37,096 nt of DNA, from positions 1 through 37,096 of the forward strand of contig JARGOP010000043.1 in the NCBI GenBank assembly GCA_029233965.1, written 5' to 3'. This DNA is from Verrucomicrobiales bacterium. GTDB taxonomy: Bacteria > Verrucomicrobiota > Verrucomicrobiia > Verrucomicrobiales > DEV007. The notes under the pieces are model-generated. The model saw only the letters and a list, made by a program, of their open reading frames with translations, had not been told where the DNA came from and made no database searches. This document shows, one piece after another, positions 11,329 to 19,697 of the stretch (position 1 is the stretch's first letter; each line of letters opens with the position of its first letter). Made by a program: the position numbers and the translations under genes.

Positions 11329-12210
11329 ATGAAACCCCGATTTTTCCTTCTCCTTTTCACCGCCTTTCTCGCACCCGTTCACGCGGCTGACGAAGACTAT
11401 ACTCCCGGACCCGACGCGATGCCGAAAGAGGAGGTTCCGAAGGGCGAAGTGAGACAACACACCTGGACCAGTGAAATCTTCCCGGGCACGATTCGTGATT
11501 ACTGGGTTTACGTCCCTGCCCAATACGACAAGGAAAAACCCGCTGCGTTATTGGTTTGTCAGGATGGTGGTGGTTTTGTCCGCGAGAACGGTGCCTTCCG
11601 TGCCCCGACCGTTCTTGATAATCTTATTCATGCCGGAGACATTCCGGTGACGATCGGGATCTTCATCAATCCGGGAGTCGTGCCGGCGGCAAAGGAGGGG
11701 CAGGAGCCCCGTAAGAACCGGAGCTTCGAGTATGACACTCTCAGTGATCAGTATGCCCGCTTCCTCCTCGAAGAAATCATTCCCGAAGTCGAAAAGACCT
11801 ATCGTCTCACTGACGATCCGAAAGACCGGGTTATCTGTGGCAACAGCTCAGGCGCCATTTGCGCTTTCACCGTTGCCTGGGAGCGTCCCGAATCGTTCGG
11901 CAAGGTCATCAGCCATATCGGGAGCTTCACGAACATCCGCGGCGGTCATGTCTATCCCGCTTTGATTCGCAAAACCGAGCCCAAGCCGATCCGGGTATTT
12001 CTGCAGGACGGGGAAAACGATCTCGATAACCTTCACGGCAACTGGCCTATCGCGAATGAGCAGATGGCCGCAGCCCTCAAGTTCGCGGGCTATGACTACC
12101 GGTTTGTGATGGGGACCGGAAAGCACAGCTCAAGACATGGAGGCGCTATTTTCCCGGACACCCTGAGATGGATCTGGGAGGACTGGAAGGAATCTGTCGC
12201 CGCGAAATGA
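11329..12210 (+). CDS. secreted alpha/beta-hydrolase, enterochelin-esterase-like
   Basis: A 293-residue exported hydrolase. Residues 1-19 form a signal peptide ([16 protein letters not shown]). The fold signature is that of the esterase D/enterochelin esterase group: an [13 protein letters not shown] strand region, an [10 protein letters not shown] oxyanion segment, the nucleophile elbow GNSSGA with Ser173, and a C-terminal catalytic His in GKHSSRHGG. The acid is probably the Asp in [12 protein letters not shown]. The substrate is not visible. Relatives in PVC bacteria are often carbohydrate-ester esterases, and the next gene, only 38 bases downstream, encodes an SMP-30 type lactonase-like protein, so a shared role in sugar-ester or lactone breakdown is plausible. 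Confidence 0.9.
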
Positions 12211-13182: not shown

Positions 13183-13776
13183 TCAGGACTTTGAGAGTTC
13201 GGTGATCCTTGCAATATGCTTCGCGAGCATGTCAAATTCGAGGTTCACGCGTGACCCGACAGTGGCGGCCTTGAGGCTCGTGACCTCATGCGTGTGCGGG
13301 ATGATCCAGAGGGTGAAGCGATCTTTCTGCAAATCGGCGACGGTCAGGCTGATGCCATTCACGCAGATCGATCCTTTGTGAACCACGAGGTGCGCAAATT
13401 CGTTCGGAAGGGCCACGGTGAACTGATGGTCCTGTCCCACCGGCTCATAGGCGAGAATTTCGGCGCAGGCATCGACGTGCCCCTGGACGAAATGCCCGGA
13501 GAGCCGGTCGCCGATGCGCAGGGAACGTTCCAGGTTGACGGGGTCGCCGGGAGCAAGGTCCCCCAGATTGGTAAGGCGAAGAGTCTCGTGAAGTAGATCA
13601 AAACGCATCGCGCCGTCTTTGACTTCAGTGACGGTGAGGCAGGCGCCGTTGTTGGCGACACTTTCGCCCAGTGCGACTTCACCGGTGAAGGTCGAATTCA
13701 CCCAAAGCTCAGCCCCTGTCTCGACTGGTTTCAGGGCGGCCACTTCGCCGCATTCTTCGATGATTCCGGTAAACAT
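13183..13776 (-). CDS. ribE: riboflavin synthase, alpha chain
   Basis: Dismutates two molecules of 6,7-dimethyl-8-ribityllumazine to riboflavin. The 197-residue product starts MFTGIIEECGEV, the invariant N-terminus of the family. It shows the internal duplication of two lumazine-binding barrels: NNGACLTV in the first half and VNGISLTV in the second, with HFVQGHVD at the beginning of the second barrel. The upstream extension of the frame (to 14001) is not family-like and overlaps a divergent esterase gene, so the ATG at 13776 is used. No FMN riboswitch was recognised upstream, and no other riboflavin gene is adjacent. Confidence 0.96.
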   Translation of the reverse strand: MFTGIIEECGEVAALKPVETGAELWVNSTFTGEVALGESVANNGACLTVTEVKDGAMRFDLLHETLRLTNLGDLAPGDPVNLERSLRIGDRLSGHFVQGHVDACAEILAYEPVGQDHQFTVALPNEFAHLVVHKGSICVNGISLTVADLQKDRFTLWIIPHTHEVTSLKAATVGSRVNLEFDMLAKHIARITELSKS

Positions 13777-13882
13777 GAGGGACTCTAGCACAGGATTGAT
13801 CGGACTTGCAAAAATCATCCTGACTCGATCAGGCTTGACCGTGGAGCAACCAAACTGGTTCGATGGGCGCGATTCGCTTTTC

Positions 13883-14806
13883 ATGAAATTCCTCTCCATC
13901 TTCTTCAGTTTGTGCCTGTCATTCGCGACCGCAGCAGAGCGCGAGCCTTCGATCATTTGGATCAATGAATTGTCGGCCGACAAATCCCTTCCTCCGAACA
14001 CGACGCATCAAACCTTTTACTCTGAGGCTGCGGGCGAGGATGTGGGCTATTGCCTCTACCTTCCGCCCGGCTACGCGGAAAACACAGAGGTGCGCTACCC
14101 GGTAATCTATAACCTGCACGGCAACGGCGGGAATGAGTTTCACAGTTTTGAGGACGTCGAGGTCCTTCACGCGGGCATTCTCGCCGGGAAGTGGCCGCCG
14201 ATGATCATGGCGTTGCCGAATGGAGGTCACAGCACTTTCTACAAGGATTCACACGACGGCAAGCTGCCGATCGAGACGATGGTCATCCGGGAGTTTCTTC
14301 CACACATCGACAGGACCTACCGGACGATCGCGGCCCGTGAAGGAAGATGTATTGAGGGATTTTCGATGGGAGGTCGTGGCTCACTGCGTCTTGCCATGAA
14401 GTATCCCGATCTATTCTGCTCGCTGTTTTGTCAGGCGGGAAATGTGCCGAGGACGTTGGCGAATTTTGATGCCGCTGAAAAATGGGAGGACGTGATTCAG
14501 GGCTATCTCGGTCCGGACCGGGAGAACTATGTGAACAACGATGCCTTTCTCCTCCTCGAAAAGAATCTGAAGAAGATCAAAGGCCGCCTCCGCATTCAGA
14601 TGGCCTGCGGCACGAAGGACGGAGGTCACCTTCCGACGGTTCGGGATTTTCATCGCCATCTCGTCGAGCACGGGGTGGATCACACTTACATCGAGTTGGA
14701 AGGACTCGCCCACCGACGCACGGAAATGATCAAACGAATGGAGCCGATCTGGTTTGACTACCACGTGGAATCAATCCGCCTCGCGACGGAGGCGGCCGGA
14801 AAGTAG
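13883..14806 (+). CDS. secreted esterase, esterase D/feruloyl-esterase-like
   Basis: A 307-residue exported alpha/beta-hydrolase. The ATG at 13883 gives a signal peptide (FLSIFFSLCLSFATAAE). Characteristic segments are VGYCLYLPPGY, VIYNLHGNGGNEF (oxyanion hole), nucleophile elbow GFSMGGRGS with Ser161, an acid near ACGTKDGGH and a final His in LEGLAHRRTEM. This matches the esterase D/S-formylglutathione-hydrolase/feruloyl-esterase superfamily. Export makes a polysaccharide-ester or ester-releasing role more likely than the cytoplasmic glutathione role. It is divergent from ribE across about 105 bases and lies 62 bases before the ABC transporter operon. It is a second, distant relative of the esterase at 11329. 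Confidence 0.9.
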   Translation: MKFLSIFFSLCLSFATAAEREPSIIWINELSADKSLPPNTTHQTFYSEAAGEDVGYCLYLPPGYAENTEVRYPVIYNLHGNGGNEFHSFEDVEVLHAGILAGKWPPMIMALPNGGHSTFYKDSHDGKLPIETMVIREFLPHIDRTYRTIAAREGRCIEGFSMGGRGSLRLAMKYPDLFCSLFCQAGNVPRTLANFDAAEKWEDVIQGYLGPDRENYVNNDAFLLLEKNLKKIKGRLRIQMACGTKDGGHLPTVRDFHRHLVEHGVDHTYIELEGLAHRRTEMIKRMEPIWFDYHVESIRLATEAAGK

Positions 14807-14868: not shown

Positions 14869-15774
14869 ATGACGACAGAGACTCCCACTGCCGCCCCGCC
14901 CGAAGCTGTTTTGTCCGTTTCGGGACTCCGTCGTGCCTTCGGTCGCTTCACCGCGGTGAACGAACTCGATTTGTCGGTGAATGCCGGCGAGATCTACGGA
15001 TTTCTCGGAGTGAACGGAGCCGGGAAGACGACGACGATTCGGATGCTTATGGGAATCATCGCCCCGGACAGCGGGACAATCGAATTACTTGGGCAGAAGA
15101 CGAAGCGGACCACGCTGAAGTTGAAACAGCAGATCGGCTACGTTTCGCAGGATCAAACTTTCTACCCCTGGATGACTGCCGAAATGCTGGGGAAGTTCGT
15201 CGGTGGTCTCTATCCCACCTGGGACCCGGAGGAGTTCCGCCGTCTCCTCAACGTGCTCGAAGTTCCCGCGAACCGGAAGGTTTCCAACCTCTCGGGCGGG
15301 ATGCGCGTCAAGCTGGCGCTCGCGCTTGCAATTGCCCCGAGACCGCCGCTCCTGATCCTCGACGAACCCACTGCCGGACTCGACCCGGTCGCCCGCCGCG
15401 AGTTTCTTGAGATCATCATGCACCAGTCCCGCGAGTACGGGCGGACGACCTTTTTCTCAACGCACCTCCTCGACGAAGTGGAGCGGGCGGCGGATCGGGT
15501 CGGAATCATTCACCAGGGCCAAAAGCGTTTCGAAGGGCCACTCGATGACCTGCGTCGGCGCGTGAGGGAGATTACGCTCGCGCCTGAAGAGACGTTGCCG
15601 GAGGGATTTGAGCTGTGGCGTGAGTTGGAAGTCACGGAGGCGGAGACCGGAACCCGACGAGTCATCGTGGATGCCGACGCCGGGGTCTGGGGTCAATATG
15701 GCAAACAGGGGAAACAACTTTCGCTGGATGACATCTTTATCGCCTGCGTGGGAATTTCAACGACCCGGATTTGA
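14869..15774 (+). CDS. ABC transporter ATP-binding protein (ABC-2 type)
   Basis: A 301-residue ATPase with all nucleotide-binding motifs: Walker A GVNGAGKT (47-54), Q-loop around YVSQDQ (91-96), signature LSGGM (141-145), Walker B LLILDE (161-166), the D-loop following it and the switch His199 in STHLLDE. The C-terminal 70 residues form the accessory domain typical of CcmA/YxlF/DRR-type ATPases that serve ABC-2 permeases. The stop codon overlaps the start of the first permease by one base, and the second permease overlaps the first by four. The trio should therefore be produced together and assemble as an ATPase dimer with a heterodimer of the two permeases. The substrate is unknown. Confidence 0.95.
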   Translation: MTTETPTAAPPEAVLSVSGLRRAFGRFTAVNELDLSVNAGEIYGFLGVNGAGKTTTIRMLMGIIAPDSGTIELLGQKTKRTTLKLKQQIGYVSQDQTFYPWMTAEMLGKFVGGLYPTWDPEEFRRLLNVLEVPANRKVSNLSGGMRVKLALALAIAPRPPLLILDEPTAGLDPVARREFLEIIMHQSREYGRTTFFSTHLLDEVERAADRVGIIHQGQKRFEGPLDDLRRRVREITLAPEETLPEGFELWRELEVTEAETGTRRVIVDADAGVWGQYGKQGKQLSLDDIFIACVGISTTRI

Positions 15775-17363
15775 TGACCGGAGTTCTCCTGCGCAAAGAG
15801 CTCCGGCAGCATGGAGTTTGGATGGCGATCATTCTTCCGGTGACGTGGATGCTCTTCGCTCTCGTCGTTTTTGCCAGCCTTGCCAGCGGTCTCGGCGGCG
15901 GTGTTTTTTACGGGATCGGGCAGGGCCTCTCATATCTCCTGATCATCCCCGTCTACTTGCTCTGTCATCGTCTCGTCGCAGTGGAGTTTCGCAGTCGCTC
16001 ACGGCTCTTCCTTGAGGGCTTGCCGCTGTCTCTGTTTCGACTCGTGACGGTGAAGGCCGGACTCGCTCTCTTCATCGGCGTGGTCATGGCGGTGGGGGCT
16101 GTGCTGGTTGGGGTGTTGGCCTCGGCAGGATCGGAAGCGGTTTCCACCAATTTTCTAGGCATCCTGTTCTCGTCAGCGGCGATGTGGACCGCTTTCCTCG
16201 TGGGTTTCTGTTTCTTTCTTTCGTTTCTCGGGCGCTACAAGACGTTCGTGATCATCGCGATCCTGATCGGGCTGACGATCTTTTCGAACTCAGCCCCGGT
16301 TCCTCTCAGCGCCTTTCCACCTTTCGGTTTGATTCACCGCTTTGGCTTTGAGCGAGACCAATGGCCGGTCACCGAACTTTGGCAAACCGGCCTTATCACC
16401 ACCGGATTTCTCGCAGCCGGTTTTGTAATCGGGTTGGCGAAGGAAGGATCGGTCGCGGCGCTCCTCGGGGAAGTCATGAGCTATCGGGAAAAAATGATGC
16501 TCGGAGCCGGACTTGTGATCGTCTTTCTCGCAGTCTCGCCGCTTCTCGAAGAAAAGGCCGAACCTTTCGGAATTCCCGGCGCCGTCGAGGAAACTCATGA
16601 CGGCGCTCAGGTATTTGTTTCGCCGGAGGATATTGATCGTGCTGTCGATGAAGACATTGCTCTCGCCGCATTCCTTGCCCGGGAAGTCGCGGCGAAGCGC
16701 GATTGGCTGGGGATTCCCGCAGAGGACTTTCCCCCGGTCTACGTAGTGGAGGACACCGGGCTGGAGGACGAAATGATCGACTGGGAACTGGTTGAAGGGG
16801 ACCGCGTTGTCCTCATGTATGCCGGATACCGCGAGCCCGGGTTCTCCCGGGCGAAGCTTCTCGCTTACACCATGAGTGTGTCTTTGTCAGTGCACACCCT
16901 CGGCAGGGTTGACCGGGAGCATCGCTGGTGGCTCGTCTGCGGAATTGAGGGACTGTGGGAAATGGAATCCGCCGGCGAAGCGGCGGTCGCGGCTCGTGAA
17001 AAAGTCGCGTTCGATACGATCAAAGAGCACGGGTTTTCCCTCGACCGGTTGATGGGGCGCGATCTTTATTCGGAAGAAGCCGGGTGGCGGGAGGCGGATG
17101 CCGTCGCCTGGATGTCGTTTCGATACCTCGAGGAAACGGTCGGGATGGATAAGGTTCAAAATCTGGTGCGCGCTGCCCTGACTCGCAAAGTTTCCCGGAG
17201 AGACAGTCGTCCTGTCTGGCGGGAAATGATTCAAACTGTCCCGGGGGTTTTTGCGGCGGAAACCGGACTCACCCTTGAGGAGTTTGCCGCAGGGGTGAAA
17301 GACTACATAGAGGCACATCCCGGTGAAGCCGTGGCTGCGGACGAAGAGGGAGGAGAATCATGA
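15774..17363 (+). CDS. ABC-2 permease with degenerate metallopeptidase domain
   Basis: A 529-residue protein (ATG at 15774, TGATG overlap with the ATPase gene). The N-terminal half has about six hydrophobic segments, an ABC-2 type permease start (LLRKELRQHGVWMAIIL), and a last helix near MMLGAGLVIVFLAVSPLL. The C-terminal half is hydrophilic and colinear with the gluzincin domain of the next gene. LLAYTMSVS (Tyr365 to Val369) takes the place of the zinc-binding GHEVAH segment, and CGIEGLWEM (Ile391, Glu392) takes the place of FHEGLASYIE. The spacing between the two sites is 26 residues in both proteins. The HExxH residues are absent, so this domain should not bind catalytic zinc. It is likely a partner or regulatory copy. 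Confidence 0.88.
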   Translation: MTGVLLRKELRQHGVWMAIILPVTWMLFALVVFASLASGLGGGVFYGIGQGLSYLLIIPVYLLCHRLVAVEFRSRSRLFLEGLPLSLFRLVTVKAGLALFIGVVMAVGAVLVGVLASAGSEAVSTNFLGILFSSAAMWTAFLVGFCFFLSFLGRYKTFVIIAILIGLTIFSNSAPVPLSAFPPFGLIHRFGFERDQWPVTELWQTGLITTGFLAAGFVIGLAKEGSVAALLGEVMSYREKMMLGAGLVIVFLAVSPLLEEKAEPFGIPGAVEETHDGAQVFVSPEDIDRAVDEDIALAAFLAREVAAKRDWLGIPAEDFPPVYVVEDTGLEDEMIDWELVEGDRVVLMYAGYREPGFSRAKLLAYTMSVSLSVHTLGRVDREHRWWLVCGIEGLWEMESAGEAAVAAREKVAFDTIKEHGFSLDRLMGRDLYSEEAGWREADAVAWMSFRYLEETVGMDKVQNLVRAALTRKVSRRDSRPVWREMIQTVPGVFAAETGLTLEEFAAGVKDYIEAHPGEAVAADEEGGES

Positions 17364-19318
17364 AAGCCTTCCGCGCAGTTCTCTGGAAAGAGTGGATGTC
17401 GCTTCGCCCCTTTGCCTGGCTTCTCATGGCTCTGTTCTTTGTGGGCCTCATTCTCGTGCAGGCGACCGAGTACTTCGACGAGTATCCCTTCTGGGGGAAA
17501 GTCATGAGCGATCCTGTGACGGTTTCGAGCGTGACCTTTGTGCTCGCGTTGGTGGTAGCGTTAGGGCTCATGGTCAGGGAGAGTGATGAAGGAACCCTGC
17601 GCTACCTCGACGGACTTCCGGTGCGGCGACTTACCGTCTATTTCGCAAAGTGGCTTGTCGCGGTTGGTTTGATCATTGGCGTGAACCTGCTCTGGTTTGC
17701 CGAGGGACTGGTCTACGACTGGTTTTCGAGAAGCAGTGCGTCTCCACCGGCTCCATGGCGTTCCTACGGGATCTTTATCGGGCTCGAACTCTTCCTCAGT
17801 GTTTACTTCGTCACGATCCTTGTCTGCTTCTCATTCCTCCGGCGCTGGGCTTTGTTGGTGATTGGAGGGATCTTCTGGATCGTCTTCTGGCTCACGTCCC
17901 TGCAAGTGCCCTACGCCGAAGTATTGAATCCTTTCCTTCTCATTCAGACACCGGCTGATATTGAAACGCATTGGGAGTGGCCGGTCTTGCAGCTCGTCGT
18001 CATGACAGCGGGGGGAGTCATCGCCTGGTGGATTGGCTACGGAATTTTTTCTCTGAGGCTTGGTTGGGCCCGCGCGATTCAGAAGGTGATGCGGGAGACC
18101 TGGTGGGGGAGGCTGGCGGGTGGATGTTCGATCCTGTTGATTGCGGTGGTGTGGTTCGGACTGCTCCTCGTCACATCGTGGGATGAGGGCATGGAGGAGG
18201 CTGAGGAAATCGCCCGCGCATACGAGGAGGAAATGGAACTGATCGAATCGGGGAACAATATTCTGACTGCGGAAACAGATCACTTCCGGTTCATCTATCG
18301 GGGGAAAGTAGAGAAACGTATGAAGCGGGTTCTGGCGAAAGCTGACCCGGTCTTTGAGGAGGTCGCGCATTTTCTGCAGGTGCCGGAGGAGATGCGGGAG
18401 GATCTCATCACGGTGGATCTTTCAAGCCCCCTTGCTTCTCATAATGCCGGTCAGGCCTACTGGAAGAAGATCCGCATGGCTCTGCCGGCGAAGCCGGGGA
18501 AAGGGAAGCAGCGTGAGGCGGAGACCTTCGCGATTCTCGGGCACGAGGTCGCTCATGTCTTCATCGATCAGCTCACGAAAGGCCGTCTAGAGGCGTCTTT
18601 CAATTCGGCGCGCTGGTTTCACGAGGGACTCGCGAGTTACATCGAGTTTCGCTTTTTCCGTGAAGAAGGCGCCGATGAGAACTATCGCCGATGGGTCGGA
18701 ATCGCCTCAGGCTGGGGTGAGGTTCACTTTTCTGAGATGGTGAACAACGCGGAATTCAGTCAGCGGCGGGATCTCAATCTGGCCTACCCGGCGGGCTATC
18801 TCTGGGTGGATTCGCTCGTGCGGGTTTACGGGGATGACGCCCCGGCCAAACTGCTCGCTGCGATCGGTCGGGACGGCGGCCCCGAAAAGCTCGATGGCAT
18901 GGCCCTGTGGCGTGATGGATGTCTCGCCTCTGATTTTGATCTCGAACGGATTCGCTCCGATTTCCGGAAGCAGCTCGCCGCGTTGAGAAAGGAATACAGC
19001 GCTGAGGCCCGGAGTTTCGAAGAAATCAAGGAGGGCGAAGCCTTTCGTCGCGGTGGGCAGATTGTTGTGAAACCGGTCCTGCCGGAGGATTGGAAAGACA
19101 CCCTCCCCGAAGGTTGGGAATTAATCTGCCGGTTCCGTCCGAGACAGGATTCCCCGCCGATGCAATGGCGCTACAGCAAGCCCGGGGCAGACGATACCTT
19201 CAGCGTTCCCGCACTTAATTTCCCCGCCAGAGAAATCGGCTTTCAGGTCGGGATTCGCTTCGAAGAAGAGATGCCGATTTTCGGGGAGTGGGTGAATGTG
19301 ACTGTGGAAGTGAAGTGA
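17360..19318 (+). CDS. ABC-2 permease fused to an intact gluzincin metallopeptidase domain
   Basis: A 652-residue protein. Residues 1 to about 275 are a permease with about six hydrophobic segments (start FRAVLWKEWMSLRPFAWLL, last helix SILLIAVVWFGLLLVT). After an acidic coiled linker comes a peptidase-like domain with GHEVAH (His395, Glu396, His399), then WFHEGLASYIEFRF, where Glu422, 23 residues after His399, fits the third zinc ligand of gluzincins (clan MA(E)). A further C-terminal region of about 180 residues is probably beta-rich. Family knowledge: HExxH plus a downstream Glu binds zinc and cleaves peptides. Inferred: the domain lies on the far side of the membrane and acts on a peptide or protein handled by the transporter. 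The gene overlaps the upstream permease by ATGA and has a GGAGG sequence before its start. Confidence 0.9.
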   Translation: MKAFRAVLWKEWMSLRPFAWLLMALFFVGLILVQATEYFDEYPFWGKVMSDPVTVSSVTFVLALVVALGLMVRESDEGTLRYLDGLPVRRLTVYFAKWLVAVGLIIGVNLLWFAEGLVYDWFSRSSASPPAPWRSYGIFIGLELFLSVYFVTILVCFSFLRRWALLVIGGIFWIVFWLTSLQVPYAEVLNPFLLIQTPADIETHWEWPVLQLVVMTAGGVIAWWIGYGIFSLRLGWARAIQKVMRETWWGRLAGGCSILLIAVVWFGLLLVTSWDEGMEEAEEIARAYEEEMELIESGNNILTAETDHFRFIYRGKVEKRMKRVLAKADPVFEEVAHFLQVPEEMREDLITVDLSSPLASHNAGQAYWKKIRMALPAKPGKGKQREAETFAILGHEVAHVFIDQLTKGRLEASFNSARWFHEGLASYIEFRFFREEGADENYRRWVGIASGWGEVHFSEMVNNAEFSQRRDLNLAYPAGYLWVDSLVRVYGDDAPAKLLAAIGRDGGPEKLDGMALWRDGCLASDFDLERIRSDFRKQLAALRKEYSAEARSFEEIKEGEAFRRGGQIVVKPVLPEDWKDTLPEGWELICRFRPRQDSPPMQWRYSKPGADDTFSVPALNFPAREIGFQVGIRFEEEMPIFGEWVNVTVEVK

Positions 19319-19409: not shown

Positions 19410-19697
19410 ATGAAAACCTCTCTGTTTACCACTCCGAAACTCATCCTCTCTGCAATCGCATCGCTCTCGCTCACTCTGGGAGTCCCAATCAACGCAAGCG
19501 CCTCTGAAGGCTTGATGGTCAGGAAAGTGAAGGTAAAGGACCACAAGGTGAAAGTGAAGACGGTGGGCGGTAAGGCCAAGATCAAGAACAAGGCGAATGG
19601 TAAGCAGAAGTTCAAAGCGAAAGGCTGGAGCGGTGATCTTGCTGCTTCCATTGCCCACGACGCGGTGAGCGGGCCGGGCTGTCGGCACGGGAAGTGA
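19410..19697 (+). CDS. small Lys-rich secreted protein
   Basis: A 95-residue product with a signal peptide (LILSAIASLSLTLGVPINASA) and a strongly basic mature part built on alternating Lys and Val/Ile (VRKVKVKDHKVKVKTVGG, then KAKIKNKANGKQKFKAKG). No Cys pattern or known domain was seen. The alternating pattern would favour an amphipathic strand with one lysine-rich face. Binding to a polyanion such as DNA, lipopolysaccharide or acidic polysaccharide is a guess. It follows the ABC-peptidase operon by 91 bases and has no Shine-Dalgarno sequence. It could be an unrelated small envelope protein, or a substrate of the transporter by proximity only. Confidence 0.65.
   Translation: MKTSLFTTPKLILSAIASLSLTLGVPINASASEGLMVRKVKVKDHKVKVKTVGGKAKIKNKANGKQKFKAKGWSGDLAASIAHDAVSGPGCRHGK

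Follow-up and report, generated by a model that had tools for sequence, protein, structure and literature searches.

Fusions that place an ABC-2 permease and an M1 aminopeptidase-type domain in one chain exist in phyla other than the Verrucomicrobiota. In M1 enzymes the Glu of a GxMEN motif binds the N-terminus of the substrate, and TAF2, a eukaryotic transcription factor of TFIID with the M1 fold, is a pseudo-aminopeptidase. ABC-2 permeases also take part in NosDFY, which works mechanically, and in LanFEG, a lantibiotic immunity system laid out as one ATPase and two unequal ABC-2 permeases. To our knowledge, NosY, PmtD and ABCG lack a seventh helix that would connect them to a peptidase domain, and we know of no live/dead pair of peptidase domains of the kind that we propose here; nor, among the literature matches listed, did we find a description of such a trio of one ATPase and two permeases.

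The DNA analysed here (the window) is a stretch of 37,096 nucleotides from a Verrucomicrobiales bacterium (contig JARGOP010000043.1). It carries three overlapping genes, for an ABC ATPase and two permeases, PER1 and PER2, each of which ends in a domain predicted to adopt an M1-like fold. The features of this trio are as follows.

14869-15774, plus strand: ABC ATPase, 301 aa (PF00005, E = 3.8e-31; Walker A, LSGGM, Walker B and H-loop)
15774-17363, plus strand: permease 1 (PER1), 529 aa, with ABC-2 core, extra helix 7 and apparent pseudopeptidase domain (PF12730, E = 8.8e-4, below cut-off; NosY match)
16557-17321, plus strand: PER1 residues 262-516, predicted M1-like fold without HExxH, an apparent pseudopeptidase (matches to 7edx_B and 8sw0; HExxH in 0 of 18)
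17360-19318, plus strand: permease 2 (PER2), 652 aa, with ABC-2 core, extra helix 7, zinc-peptidase-like domain and C-terminal beta region (PF12730, ABC2_membrane_4, E = 8.2e-7, above cut-off; NosY match)
18251-19027, plus strand: PER2 residues 298-556, predicted M1-fold (gluzincin-type) domain (PF13485, Peptidase_MA_2, E = 3.8e-5; M1 matches at Z 13.8-15.3)
18542-18556, plus strand: HEVAH, PER2 residues 395-399 (HExxH in 19 of 19 PER2)
18623-18625, plus strand: Glu422, proposed third zinc ligand (HExxH-x22-E in 19 of 19 PER2)
18785-18787, plus strand: Tyr476, invariant, 81 residues past the first His (12 of 12 rows and 3 further rows)
19028-19315, plus strand: PER2 residues 557-652, C-terminal beta region (beta strands in the model)

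A preliminary description of this DNA had reported an ATPase gene and two permease genes that overlap by one and four bases, and the three reading frames and both overlaps are indeed present, with PER1 starting at the ATG at 15774 (the mechanical list of reading frames gives a TTG at 15771). The ATPase has a Walker A motif (GVNGAGKT, at residue 47), LSGGM (141), a Walker B motif (LLILDE, 161) and an H-loop (STH, 197). Together with PF12730, which scores over its cut-off in PER2 and under it in PER1, and with the NosY fold of both permease models, these features give the trio the ATPase and permeases expected of an ABC-2 transporter. The long C-terminal domain that had been described on each permease is also borne out, the extensions past the last predicted membrane helix being 270 aa in PER1 and 381 aa in PER2. 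No Pfam family scores over its cut-off for these domains, either in the window proteins or in sets of 12 domain sequences, and no NCBIfam family does so in the window proteins.

The preliminary description had proposed searching other Verrucomicrobiota for the same three-gene arrangement, and we find it in one genus, four other families of the class and a named record whose genus is unplaced (Akkermansiaceae bacterium UBA6138). The order ATPase, PER1, PER2 is kept in each of the 18 fetched loci whose DNA ahead of PER2 could be read, which comprise 11 genomes of the genus, a second copy in one of these (G024), the UBA6138 record and five genomes from other families; a nineteenth PER2 (G014) starts at a contig edge. 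The motif counts below cover 19 PER2 proteins and 18 whole PER1 proteins. The overlap between the two permease genes is exactly 4 bases in 14 of the 18 loci; it is 0 in L023, replaced by a gap of 49 in L045, and 38 and 40 in L027 and L046 if the first possible start is taken. Among 56 genomes searched, PER2 occurs in 12 of 33 within the genus and in none of 23 relatives outside it. A class-wide search of 384 genomes with the peptidase-domain profile found five besides the window's own, in four other families (E = 6e-74 to 6e-101), two of which were also found in a search of 286 genomes, and a contig scan with peptides of the window protein returned eight loci, all titled Verrucomicrobiales, Verrucomicrobiaceae or Akkermansiaceae. 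In a sample of 387 genomes from the phylum, the full PER2 profile gave, besides the window's own, three weak matches to permease halves with no peptidase visible by eye; at most three candidates were scored per genome there, and seven in the class-wide search, so that absence is to be read softly. Among plasmids, PER2 had no match and the peptidase domain alone had one weak match (E = 0.6).

The patchy presence of the trio, in about a third of the genus and in very few genomes of the class, is what one would cite in favour of a chance or assembly-born fusion confined to one strain, but 18 loci with identical gene order in several families rule this out, and we give it practically no probability. 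Flanking genes argue for inheritance with losses within the genus, because they are common to the window, L016, L017 and G025: in the first three a riboflavin-synthase-like gene flanks the trio on one side and an antiporter/NADH-dehydrogenase-like cluster on the other (named by eye), and G025 has a match to the cluster (L010) as well as a riboflavin-synthase-like gene identified by eye (L032). We also note three individual cases. The genus member G024 has its second, divergent trio on contig C141 (L027, 3407-5722); in L023 (5537-7472) permease 2 is split near its end into frames of 600 and 78 aa, through a frame break or an assembly error; and L036 (G522) holds a permease frame of ABC-2 type whose C-terminus extends for more than 300 residues, with no HExxH seen by eye, and is thus a further permease with an unassigned extra domain.

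Both permeases appear from hydropathy to have approximately seven helices, with helix ends set by hand. The predicted fold of the first six resembles that of the ABC-2 permeases NosY, PmtD and ABCG: residues 1-223 of the PER1 model match NosY chain 7o12_E (Z 15.1, rmsd 3.8, 216 aligned) and residues 2-234 of the PER2 model match NosY chain 7znq_y (Z 15.7, rmsd 3.6, 218 aligned). Since the NosY-like core ends at about residues 225-234 in both proteins, helix 7 is extra, and it would place both C-terminal domains on the outer side of the membrane. The Lys and Arg counts per loop support an outer C-terminus in PER2 (inside 3, 3, 2, 5; outside 1, 2, 0, 1, given the hand-set helix ends) and give a weak signal in PER1 (inside 3, 4, 0, 1; outside 0, 0, 2, 2). 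At its C-terminus the divergent PER2 of L027 has an F5/8 type C domain (PF00754, E = 4.7e-16); such domains are usually extracellular, which agrees with the outer location, and its presence hints at sugar or surface binding.

HEVAH at residues 395-399 and the downstream Glu422, which lies in HEGLA (421-425), are where the preliminary description had placed them in PER2. All 19 PER2 proteins have HExxH-x22-E, the combination of HExxH with a downstream Glu that characterizes gluzincins (clan MA, the group of PF13485), and both elements are unchanged throughout two alignments, one of 12 rows and another of 12 rows that reaches down to 20% identity. The equally invariant Tyr476 lies, we presume, near the place of the transition-state Tyr of M1 enzymes. 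From about residue 298 on, the PER2 model matches M1 aminopeptidases at the Z values given above, among the matches listed, and it also matches the M30 peptidase lugdulysin (Z 14.2). Structure prediction of the C-terminal domains, which had been proposed as a check, thus gives an M1 aminopeptidase fold when AlphaFold models are compared with the PDB, clearly for PER2 and less strongly for PER1. We note that these are comparisons of predicted models only, made with AlphaFold2 from 9-row alignments for proteins that both exceed the 400 residues advised for the tool, with mean pLDDT of 73 and 69, pTM of 0.51 and 0.46, and values under 50 in some parts of the region ahead of HExxH. Foldseek was weaker, giving a best E of 2.1e-5 for PER2, with rmsd of 15-17 and TM below 0.3 over long multi-domain alignments. 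In sequence searches, the window domain reaches 24 bits against PF13485, below the curated cut-off of 32.4; 8 of 12 domain members match this family, all below cut-off (best E = 1.5e-5); phmmer with PER2 found no match among PDB sequences up to E = 10; and a PER2 domain profile reached aminopeptidases only at E = 0.07. PF13485 is the Pfam family that the majority of domain members match, although here the domain is fused to an ABC-2 permease.

PER2 resembles the M1 aminopeptidases (PF01433) in predicted catalytic-domain fold, HExxH and downstream Glu, but differs in having HExxH-x22-E rather than x18, in lacking GxMEN (0 of 19) and in having a permease in place of the N-terminal domain. By comparison, of 30 M1 loci of the phylum, out of 38 matches, 29 have HExxH-x18-E and GxMEN and at most two hydrophobic segments; for the thirtieth, the script picked a different frame. 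On plasmids, 155 records have an M1 match, and none of the 5 examined is annotated as an ABC-2/M1 fusion. PER2 therefore looks like a gluzincin of M1 fold, as far as its model goes, and not like a canonical M1 aminopeptidase. Because GxMEN is absent, the domain may accept substrates that lack a free N-terminus.

Both permeases had been described as carrying a gluzincin-type domain. For PER1 the fold part of this claim is supported by the predicted model and the catalytic part does not hold: HExxH is absent from all 18 whole PER1 proteins, and a Pfam search of PER1 domains gave a peptidase match in 0 of 12 members. Residues 262-515, approximately, of the predicted model match M1-type chains at Z 12.8-14.2, with weak sequence support; the top M1-type match is the TFIID chain 7edx_B (Z 14.2, rmsd 3.8, 227 aligned), which we take to be TAF2, and puromycin-sensitive aminopeptidase 8sw0 also matches (Z 13.8, rmsd 3.4, 217 aligned). 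Because PER2 matches 7edx_B as well (Z 14.6), this match bears on fold and not on deadness, and we claim no functional relation to TAF2. Foldseek with the PER1 model gave nothing under E = 0.001, the best values being 7e-3 to NosY and 0.015 to an M1 enzyme. In a MAFFT alignment of PER1 and PER2 domains, the HExxH helix of PER1 does not fall in a sensible place; judging from the order of predicted elements, its equivalent would lie at about residues 359-374. In four of six divergent PER1 proteins (L028, L029, L044 and L046) the presumed stretch reads, by eye, R-E-x-x-hydrophobic, which looks like a decayed site.

BLASTP between PER1 and PER2 gives a best E of 2.1. Their membrane halves are homologous (hhalign, E = 1.2e-16). 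Their C-terminal domains show a weaker relation: hhalign gives a probability of only 3.6 with 12 rows and, with 15 rows each, a collinear local match with E = 6.8e-4 and a probability of 27%; and the PER1 profile reaches just one PER2 (L046, E = 1.3e-4). These hhalign and profile values are compatible with a scenario in which a fused permease was duplicated and one copy then lost its active site. Relative to L016, dN is 0.122 for the PER1 domain and 0.096 for the PER2 domain, and relative to L017 it is 0.207 and 0.196; dS is saturated or undefined, and we do not rely on dN/dS ratios. By dN, the apparently dead PER1 domain is about as constrained as its PER2 counterpart, and with its catalytic motif lost and the domain under selection it looks like a conserved pseudopeptidase.

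Starting from the gene order, its conservation and the presence of HExxH in PER2 and its absence from PER1, and from the predicted folds and topology, we infer a heterodimeric machine, its zinc and activity, its substrate and its direction. A PER1/PER2 heterodimer is likely because the two permeases are homologous, the trio is conserved and an M1-like fold is predicted for both, and, since no PER1 retains HExxH, one active site per pair is expected. The product of the single ATPase gene, presumably as a dimer, would drive this heterodimer, in which each six-helix core carries a seventh helix that would set an M1-fold domain of approximately 250 residues on the periplasmic side. The PER2 domain would act as a zinc peptidase through H395, E396, H399, E422 and Tyr476, and the conserved dead copy in PER1 might be a scaffold, a lid or a receptor for the substrate. 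Powered by ATP cycling, the machine would move a peptide-type substrate through the inner membrane or extract it from there, and would present it to the live/dead pair for cleavage; an exported peptide or an anchored protein would thereby mature, or harmful peptides would be eliminated. Coupled export and cleavage is a plausible possibility, and we give about even chances to the overall reading, an ABC-2 machine with an outward live/dead peptidase pair by which peptide substrates would be processed or removed.

It is possible that the outer domains are moved and nothing crosses the membrane, such that ATP cycling opens and closes the live/dead pair; the complex would then be a surface protease gated by ATP, with periplasmic or membrane-anchored proteins as its targets. 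The best permease matches include NosY of the mechanically working NosDFY, and large outer domains are predicted on both permeases; on the other hand, the core bears a likeness to exporters too, PmtCD and ABCG among them. MacB-type ABC proteins work in the periplasm without transport across the membrane in which they sit, although their fold differs, being four-helix (PMC5985334). On balance we regard such a protease as rather unlikely. We are more doubtful still that the trio is a peptide-resistance device that frees the membrane of a toxic or antimicrobial peptide by extracting and degrading it, combining LanFEG-like immunity with a protease. It does share the LanFEG layout, and among the profiles matched by the ATPase are those of lantibiotic-protection and PSM-export subunits, with scores roughly half of the cut-offs, but these matches are generic (195 families were matched) and inspection by eye of the neighbouring frames listed revealed neither a sensor gene nor a biosynthetic one.

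That both C-terminal domains are non-catalytic binding modules, with the HExxH of PER2 a relic, would be in keeping with the persistence of the PER1 domain without that motif. Nevertheless, HExxH, Glu422 and Tyr476 of PER2 stay invariant while overall identity falls to the lowest level aligned, and we find this reading very improbable. Returning to the machine with an outward live/dead pair, we suggest, tentatively and with more doubt than confidence, that it may represent a new class of ABC machine, in which an ancestral permease-peptidase fusion was duplicated, one site was lost, and the pair forms an ATP-gated chamber on the outer face that couples passage through the ABC-2 gate to cleavage. 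If so, a single heterodimer, in which a pseudoenzyme is the permanent partner, would combine ATP hydrolysis, membrane passage and peptide cleavage. The locus would then offer a testable case of how a dead peptidase domain retains a role next to a live twin, and the trio would give studies of function in Verrucomicrobiota a defined target.

By eye, among the frames listed around the loci, no further gene is a constant neighbour of the trios. Immediately downstream in the window (19410-19697) is a gene for a small Lys-rich, secreted-looking protein with VKVK and KAKIK stretches, which had been raised as a possible client. We reject this candidate, whose distribution does not track that of the trio: relatives occur in 13 of the 56 genomes, 8 of which lack PER2, and among the 33 genomes of the genus 7 have PER2 only, 8 the Lys-rich gene only and 5 both; in 2 of the latter the Lys-rich gene adjoins PER2, and in the remaining 3 it lies on a different contig. 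Lastly, two esterase-like genes, in which GNSSG and GFSMG were read by eye, lie near the trio in the window, at 11329-12210 and 13619-14806; the second ends 62 bases upstream of the ATPase gene, with which it could share a transcript, and a similar frame is present in L016 and L017.
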